From the NCBI RefSeq assembly GCF_013342145.1, contig NZ_JABUQZ010000001.1, forward strand, positions 1 through 64,000: a stretch of 64,000 bases of DNA, given 5' to 3'. Origin of the DNA: Haloterrigena gelatinilytica. Its GTDB lineage: Archaea; Halobacteriota; Halobacteria; Halobacteriales; Natrialbaceae. The first letter of the stretch is position 1. Each line of letters starts with the position of its first letter. The notes beneath the pieces were generated by a model, which was given only the letters and a program-made list of their open reading frames with translations, ran no database searches and was not told the DNA's origin. Below are positions 25,009-63,481 of the stretch, in pieces. Both the position numbers and the translations under genes were made by a program.

Positions 25009-25395
25009 ACCACACCGCACCAGCGGGAGGCTTGTAACCGTTCCCACCAACCTTTTTTAACGGGGTCCTCCCTCGCTTCGCTCGCTCGAACCCCGTCTGC
25101 TCACGGGCCGAAGGCCCGTTCGCACGTCACGTGGGACCTCCGGTCCCACGCTGCCAAAAACCGTCCTCAGAAATCGAAGATTTCTGACGGGCGCAGCAAG
25201 AGCTTCGCTCTTGTGGCCGTCGATGAAAAAAGGCCGCCGTCGCGGGGCTTCGCCCCGCTCCGGCGGTGAATCGCTCGCTTCGCTCGTGAATGCTAGGACA
25301 ACCGCAACGAAGCAGCGCCCCTCCCTCTCGAGTCACCGCAATACGAACTCGAGAGAAATTGCGTACAGCGCCGCGGAGAACAGTTTCTGGAGCCG
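25009..25395. other. hairpin-rich intergenic region
   Basis: No gene is seen. The stretch is packed with short perfect inverted repeats joined by GAA or TTC loops: arms at 25104-25118, 25131-25149, 25167-25187 (TCAGAAATC/GATTTCTGA), 25197-25213 (CAAGAGC/GCTCTTG) and 25242-25258 (GCGGGGC/GCCCCGC). Part of it (25094-25149) is a copy of the dispersed repeat described separately. It could form a chain of stem-loops in RNA or single-stranded DNA. Confidence 0.6.
25094..25149 (-). repeat. dispersed double-stem repeat, copy A
   Basis: On the reverse strand it reads GTGGGACCGGAGGTCCCAC (stem 1), then GTGCGAACG, a GGGCCTTCGGCCC stem 2, then CGTGAGCAGACG. Copies B (27792-27850) and D (63334-63389) share the same order, loops and single-stranded strings, with different bases in stem 2. 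Pairing is preserved. Confidence 0.7.
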
Positions 25396-27662: not shown

Positions 27663-27791
27663 CGGTCGGCTATCGCGCGGGTATTCCGTCTCGTTCTCTC
27701 CAGTCTGATCGAACCGCGTGCGGCGGCGCACCTGATCACGGTGAGCGTATCGGGAACCGTGCTCCGAAGCCGTGCGAGGTCTTCGCGAGTC

Positions 27792-27850
27792 GTGCGGGAC
27801 CTCCGGTCCCGCATCCCATGCGAACGCCGCACGGTCGCCGTGAGCAGACG
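27792..27850 (+). repeat. dispersed double-stem repeat, copy B
   Basis: Reads TGCGGGACCTCCGGTCCCGC (stem 1), then ATGCGAACG, a stem 2 region, and CGTGAGCAGACG. A further hairpin of the same style follows at once (27847-27872, ending CCGTGAGCAG), so the second half may be duplicated. It lies in the 280-base gap between the RNase and acetyltransferase genes, which holds no gene. Confidence 0.65.
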
Positions 27851-60446: not shown

Positions 60447-60581
60447 ATGCCACGACACGAACTCTACGACGACGACGGCAGCACCGAGCGCGAACAGTGC
60501 CCCCGCTGCGGGGACGCTTTCCTCGCCGACCACGGTGACCGCCAGCACTGCGGCAAGTGCGGGTACACCGAGTGGGAATAG
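60447..60581 (+). CDS. rps27ae: 30S ribosomal protein S27ae
   Basis: 44 residues: [20 protein letters not shown], then [20 protein letters not shown]. The CPRCG and CGKCG pairs form the zinc ribbon of eukaryotic/archaeal S27a, without the ubiquitin part. It begins directly after the S24e stop, the conserved archaeal order. Too short for most gene-calling length cutoffs. Confidence 0.95.
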
Positions 60582-60612
60582 CGAGGGATCGAGCGCAGCG
60601 AGAGTCCTCGAA

Positions 60613-60645
60613 GATGCGAACGGACGCATTGCGTCCGTGAGCAAG
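60613..60645 (+). repeat. dispersed double-stem repeat, partial copy C
   Basis: Only the second half is kept: ATGCGAACG, stem GGACGC-ATT-GCGTCC, then GTGAGCAAG. Stem 1 is missing or degraded to AGAGTCCTCGAAG. It lies in the 118-base gap between S27ae and the Kae1-Bud32 gene, so it could affect that gene's leader. Confidence 0.55.
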
Positions 60646-62766: not shown

Positions 62767-63481
62767 ATGAAACGCATTCGCATCACCCTGGACCCCGCCG
62801 GCGACTACGCGCCGCCGCTGTACCGGCGGTTCGCGGGCGGCGCGTCGTACCTCGAGCGGGTCCACATCATCAACTGGAACGTCGCGTCGCCGCCGACGGC
62901 GTTCCTACTGTGGCTTCGCGGCGATTACCGACGGCTCGAGGCGGAACTCGAAGCCAGCGAGAACGCCGACGAGTACGAACTCCTCCCGCTCGCGGATCGG
63001 GAGTGTCACTGCTTTCTCGAGGGAGCGGTCGCCGACGCCGCACGGCTCCTGTTCGAGAACTTCACGCGGGGGAGCCTGATCACCGTCCCGCCGATCGTCT
63101 GCAACGACGACGGGACCAACACGTTCTCGATCATCGGGACGGACGCCGACATCCAGAACGCGGTCGAAGGCGTTCCCGACGGCGTCGGTGTCACCGTCGA
63201 GGCGGTCGGCGGGGAGACCGTCGCCCCGAAGAGCGCCGTCGGACGCCTCTCCGAGCGCCAGCGCGAGGCCGTCGAGGCCGCCCTCGAGATCGGCTACTAC
63301 GACGTTCCCCGCGAGGCGACGACGACCGATAGCGCGGGACCGGAGGTCCCGCGGACCATGCGAACGGCGCTTCGCGCCGTGAGCAGACGTCGCCGACGAA
63401 CTCGATTGTGCGACCGCGACCGCCGCGGAGCACCTCCAGAAGGCCGAGTCAAAGCTGATCGGGGCGTTGCTCGAGCGGTAG
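62767..63481 (+). pseudogene. bacterio-opsin-activator-type HTH regulator, split by repeat D
   Basis: Residues 1-188 read normally: a haloarchaeal Bat/DmsR-type N-terminal domain (MKRIRITLDPAGDYAPPLYR, then LEGAVADAARLLFENFTRGS) and the first helix of the HTH_10 domain (LSERQREAVEAALEIGYYDV, then PREATTTD). At 63331 the repeat D intervenes (about 55 bases) and shifts the frame. The missing half of the domain (DVADELDCATATAAEHLQKA, then ESKLIGALLER and TAG at 63479-63481) is intact in the next frame from 63386. The insertion-frame product runs on to 63558 with a basic nonsense tail, so DNA binding is presumably lost. Confidence 0.85.
63334..63389 (+). repeat. dispersed double-stem repeat, copy D (inserted in a gene)
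   Basis: Stem 1 GCGGGACCGGAGGTCCCGC, spacer, then ATGCGAACG, stem 2 GGCGC-TTC-GCGCC, then GTGAGCAGACG. It interrupts the HTH gene. Compared with the gene frame, about 55 bases (63331-63385) were added. No long target-site duplication is clear; the flanks GAT and GAC hint at a 2-3-base one at most. Confidence 0.75.

Follow-up and report, generated by a model that had tools for sequence, protein, structure and literature searches.

A short two-hairpin element, probably PATE-like, inserted in an HTH_10 regulator gene of Haloterrigena gelatinilytica and found widely in the Halobacteria

The window analyzed here, a 64,000-nucleotide stretch of the Haloterrigena gelatinilytica genome, contains a regulator gene in which Pfam finds an HVO_0513_N domain followed by an HTH_10 domain. 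An initial annotation had described this as a Bat-type HTH gene carrying a two-stem repeat; the HTH_10 domain and the repeat are both present, but the gene is of the HVO_0513_N/HTH_10 type, and its resemblance to Bat is that of the shared HTH_10. The host residues end with PREATTTD (to 63329/63330), and the two halves of HTH_10 lie in different frames: model positions 1-28 are in the frame of the gene, while positions 28-52 are in the frame of 63386-63478 (DVADELDCATATAAEH...). Between them lies one copy of the element, designated copy D (TAGCGCGGGACCGGAGGTCCCGCGGACCATGCGAACGGCGCTTCGCGCCGTGAGCAGA), whose boundary can equally be written as 63331-63388 (Table 1).

Table 1. Features of the interrupted regulator gene, the inserted element and the other copies in the window (CM, covariance model)
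Feature	Position	Strand	Evidence
5' part of host gene: HVO_0513_N and HTH_10 positions 1-28	62767..63329	+	Pfam; orthologs
Out-of-frame 3' part of host gene, with HTH_10 positions 28-52 plus original stop TAG	63388..63481	+	Pfam; joined translation like orthologs
Inserted two-hairpin element (copy D), 58 bp (TAGCGCGG...GTGAGCAGA)	63330..63387	+	Missing from 5/5 congeners; CM 81.4 bits
Hairpin 1: perfect 9-bp stem CGCGGGACC/GGTCCCGCG, 3-nt loop GGA	63333..63353	+	Folding; covariation
Hairpin 2: TGC-GA-ACGGCGC / GCGCCGT-GA-GCA, invariant tandem G.A mismatch in stem	63359..63385	+	Folding; covariation
Second window copy	25096..25153	-	CM 75.5 bits; common to G005 at the orthologous place (L160)
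Third window copy	27790..27848	+	CM 70.2 bits; common to G002 and G003
Diverged window copy with different hairpin 1, upstream of Kae1/TsaD-family ORF	60579..60645	+	CM 32.3 bits

When 63330-63387 is deleted in silico, the joined flanks translate without interruption into a 218-residue protein that matches the congener orthologs, rebuilding HTH_10 as had been predicted. The alignment with orthologs that had been proposed as a check reveals an intact gene and HTH in 5 of 5 congeneric genomes, each lacking exactly 58 bp at the insertion point and none carrying the segment in frame. The insertion itself is confirmed, but its length, first put at about 55 bases, is exactly 58 bp. Because 58 bp is not a multiple of three, the host frame is shifted and the ORF continues to 63558, ending in a 75-residue basic tail; the frame shift accounts for this nonsense tail, as the initial annotation had argued. 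The splitting of the DNA-binding domain within the helix-turn-helix indicates that the regulator has very probably been inactivated.

The insertion is probably a recent event, as was also proposed, because it is absent in all congeners and the 3' half of the gene contains no nonsynonymous or stop change. Codons in this half that are specific to this genome comprise 3 synonymous and 0 nonsynonymous changes, which argues that the host gene was under selection until recently. This reading is tempered by the nearest sampled copy, which differs from copy D at 5 positions, so that no donor is identified. One genome of this species (4.55 Mb) entered the comparison, a circumstance that would be compatible with junctions created by faulty assembly or sequencing; such an artefact is, however, highly improbable, given that the insert is a full-length representative of a family with further copies in the genome and across the class, and is cleanly missing in the orthologs.

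The two hairpins of copy D are joined by a short linker and fold far better than shuffled sequences (z = -5.6). The architecture of the element is TAG-hairpin1-ACC-hairpin2-GCAGA, with a length of about 54-60 bp; across the family a TAG start is present in 58/75 copies and an AGCAGA end in 56/75, and the TAG and GCAGA ends are each 2-3 nt from a hairpin (3 nt at the 5' end, 2 nt at the 3' end). Comparison of the 5' end (TAGYG) with the reverse complement of the 3' end (TCTGC) indicates that there are no terminal inverted repeats. The element has no coding capacity, and 54-60 bp is too short for a transposase gene. At one locus (L096, G003:C36:149600-150150), tandem repeats contain hairpin 2 after a different first hairpin (CGACGAGCGATAGCTCGTCG), which suggests that hairpin 1 is exchangeable.

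Searches with a covariance model built from 12 copies, whose E-values are rough because the model is home-made, count 24 copies here, against 21-52 per congener. In this genome, a strict hairpin-2 pattern yields 9 matches versus 0 with the reversed control. The genome search that the initial annotation had recommended places the element across the class: at an E-value of 1e-6, 173 of the 292 Halobacteria genomes drawn contain it, as do 51 of 77 genera, and because the scan scored no more than 18 candidates per genome, its copy numbers are lower bounds. In a phylum-wide draw, 49 genomes have a match, and all (49/49) belong to Haloterrigena's own order. Natrinema gelatinilyticum NZ_CP100757.1 (H22) has 25 matches on a single 1.6-Mb replicon, possibly a recent expansion. 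The literature covered contains neither the sequence nor a description of the element, which may be related to a Haloquadratum PATE listed in the supplementary tables of PMC3119063.

The stems of the element are well maintained. Among the stem cells of 86 distinct copies, 98.8% are paired; 137 show Watson-Crick changes on both sides and 8 are G-U, and the covariation score of every shuffled or slid control is far below that of the real alignment. The near absence of G-U pairs among the stem changes suggests that the form being maintained is a DNA hairpin rather than an RNA. It is unlikely that the segment instead forms one module within a structured non-coding RNA, with most copies lying in long intergenic multi-hairpin arrays and single copies representing fragments. 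Many copies do lie within arrays bordered by CGGTGGCGCGCGCTG and GGGGAGGGTGTGGC, but the ratio of 8 G-U cells to 137 double changes is unlike that of an RNA stem, there are clean isolated insertions within coding genes, and orthologous arrays exist that lack exactly the module. A search of Rfam with the element gave no match apart from one meaningless miRNA match, which likewise speaks against this alternative, and assignment to an RNA family was rejected for want of a meaningful match. The intergenic hairpin arrays, which are 200-400 bp long and have no match in Rfam, recur across the genus with conserved borders (CGGTGGCGCGCGCTG ... GGGGAGGGTGTGGCAA hairpin TTGCCAC); they are present at L083, L088, L089, L090, L091 and L095 and at most intergenic copies (e.g. 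G000:C1:3726856, 424876).

The initial annotation had taken copy D as a sign of mobility. At the level of sequence, independent empty/filled site pairs resolved elsewhere demonstrate that the element is mobile, and repeatedly so. There are four such pairs in all (regulator, intergenic, deoC and TnpB), 0 with a target duplication and none with a loss of target bases. The intergenic copy at G000:C1:3726856 is missing from the orthologous arrays of two congeners (G004 and G005), where the empty site reads GAGTGAG^CGAAGCG. In a DeoC-family aldolase gene (L127:1295-2104, G000:C1, about 2.88 Mb; also L192), the copy at 2880069 is an in-frame insertion. Four congeners have no insert in this gene; in another (G002), a related two-hairpin insert of 45 nt adds 15 residues; and the genome studied here has the 45-nt insert with a 54-nt element (18 residues) nested within it at GGCGA^AGCC, again in frame. 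Because of the insert, the Pfam DeoC score is just below the cut-off. A TnpB gene found in several genera has an in-frame 60-nt copy near its C-terminus, at GGAAGCCCCA^CCCTCAA (CCCCA^CCCTC), and the TnpB of Halorussus aquaticus, which is 86% identical and lacks the 60-nt copy, provides the empty site.

In an IS1341-type TnpB transposon, the element is carried in the 3' end of tnpB and the right-end palindrome (L110, L105, L107, L113, L116, L117, L210), with the L107 and L210 copies being tandem or truncated. Such a transposon is a plausible route of spread between genera. On the Halorientalis marina plasmid NZ_CP095488.1 (326273-326326; L209), a copy lies across the 3' end of a gene annotated as an N-6 DNA methylase, and this gene terminates inside the copy. 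The sequence that follows this copy may be the severed C-terminal part of the methylase, making it possible that this is another gene disruption.

The left flank of the insertions usually ends in GA or GAR, although many intergenic copies share an array context and are not independent. The element also inserts into itself: it is found inside the 5' arm of hairpin 2 of another copy, at TGCGAA^CGG or TGCGAG^CGG, with as many as three levels of nesting in L083. The idea that targets are palindromic as a rule was rejected, since the copy D, deoC and intergenic targets fold no better than shuffles; the clear palindromic targets are the TnpB and nested sites only. These insertions bear on the proposal that palindromic DNA is added without transposition, when replication slips or switches template between dispersed hairpins. 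Both loop orientations are present (GAA/TTC, GGA/TCC) and the stems remain perfect, as this proposal would allow, yet slippage would hardly produce the fixed TAG...GCAGA ends and the exact, lossless insertion of whole units at unrelated sites, and it is an improbable explanation.

IS200/IS605 elements, which use a Y1 (HUH) transposase, insert next to hairpins, on the 3' side of a short sequence that they prefer, and produce no duplication. A search with Pfam found no Y1_Tnp (PF01797) gene in this genome. Over the 292 genomes, Y1 is present in 119/173 that bear the element versus 82/119 that are free of it (Fisher p = 1.0), and an association between Y1 and the element was therefore rejected; among genomes with at least 10 copies, 10/29 have no Y1. 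The search for an IS605-type parent gave no covariance-model match in Y1 loci, and in the loci searched there was neither a transposon with the element's ends nor a copy whose two hairpins flank a gene. The single IS605 element of a congener that was followed from end to end (L070) and the single TnpB gene of this genome with a recovered 3' flank (L140) have ends unlike those of the element, whereas the right end of the L110 TnpB has a GCGAACGG..CCGTGAGC hairpin core in common with hairpin 2. Given this common core, the element may have originated from an IS605 element. Phage records contain no match, leaving carriage by phage without support.

The systems closest to the element are the PATEs and the SMR-A repeats of Haloquadratum. 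In Haloquadratum walsbyi, PATEs have been described as including a 52-bp terminal-only form derived from IS605 (ISHwa23) with apparent mobility (PMC3119063). PATEs are like the element in being non-coding, in having palindromes near both ends but no terminal inverted repeats, in lacking target duplication, and in that mobility is inferred although an intact tnpA is missing (PMC3119063). The element shares 4 of the 5 PATE traits tested: no inverted repeats, end palindromes, no target duplication and a length too short for a transposase. On the fifth trait, kinship of the end palindromes with those of an IS605-type transposon, the right end of TnpB in L110 resembles hairpin 2, but the ends of L070 and L140 do not match and no parent element was found. 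It differs from PATEs in being present throughout the Halobacteria, in having no parent IS605 with such ends among those found, in going in frame into host enzymes, and in having hairpin 1 swapped for unrelated palindromes. SMR-A repeats also lack target duplication and an accounted-for mobiliser, SMR mobilisation being called enigmatic, and they insert in palindromes of PATE/IS605, much as copies of the element are nested in hairpin 2 and lie within the right-end palindrome of TnpB; however, their length is about 110 bp and their terminal inverted repeats are prominent, while the element is about 58 bp and has none (PMC3119063). The REP/RAYT system likewise has short palindromic repeats in arrays, and the TAG before hairpin 1 recalls the GTAG head of REPs, but a REP consists of one palindrome and is linked to an IS200-like RAYT gene (PMC2817692), whereas the unit that moves here has two hairpins. 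In addition, this genome lacks PF01797, and Y1 is not associated with the element. Rickettsia palindromic elements are mobile palindromes tolerated in frame within protein-coding sequences (Ogata et al. 2000, cited in PMC6649704), comparable to the deoC and tnpB cases described above; they are bacterial, whereas the haloarchaeal elements are mostly intergenic, and the likeness is one of analogy.

Taken together, these comparisons make it probable that a PATE-like, non-autonomous, palindrome-associated element of about 54-60 bp inserted in the HTH_10 regulator, shifted its frame and very probably inactivated it; the best reading of the element is as a new PATE-like non-autonomous kind. In the proposed mechanism, the moving form would be DNA folded into two hairpins and recognized by a trans-acting enzyme, and the element inserts, usually 3' of GA or GAR, neither duplicating nor losing target bases. 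The candidate mover is an IS200/IS605-type Y1 (HUH) transposase that was formerly present or came transiently from a plasmid. We infer that such an enzyme would be the most likely single candidate, although the genomic evidence is not in its favour. The competing possibility, which we hold tentatively, is a non-Y1 mechanism that targets GA-containing palindromes, including the element's own hairpin 2 and the TnpB right-end palindrome. It is consistent with the lack of a Y1_Tnp association, with nested insertions at one fixed position of hairpin 2, with the TnpB insertion within the right-end palindrome, and with the insertion of SMR-A elements in near-terminal palindromes described in PMC3119063. 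Against it, there is no candidate enzyme, SMRs are 80-110 bp with terminal inverted repeats while the element is about 58 bp without them, and a Y1 enzyme that has been lost or resides on a plasmid may account for the movement.

The regulator locus provides a clean case, within a single gene, of an archaeal 58-bp element that has jumped, and the covariance model detects its family in over half of the sampled Halobacteria. Besides disrupting regulators, such elements lengthen proteins by in-frame segments (deoC, tnpB). They might, in a broader and still speculative view, constitute class-wide haloarchaeal mini-elements of hairpin DNA that are moved by an agent other than a resident Y1, prefer GA-palindromes including their own, and repeatedly add peptides in frame. 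The Haloquadratum study left the movement of transposase-free palindromic repeats without an intact tnpA unexplained (PMC3119063). With high-copy genomes that lack Y1, the question of tnpA-less movement becomes testable.
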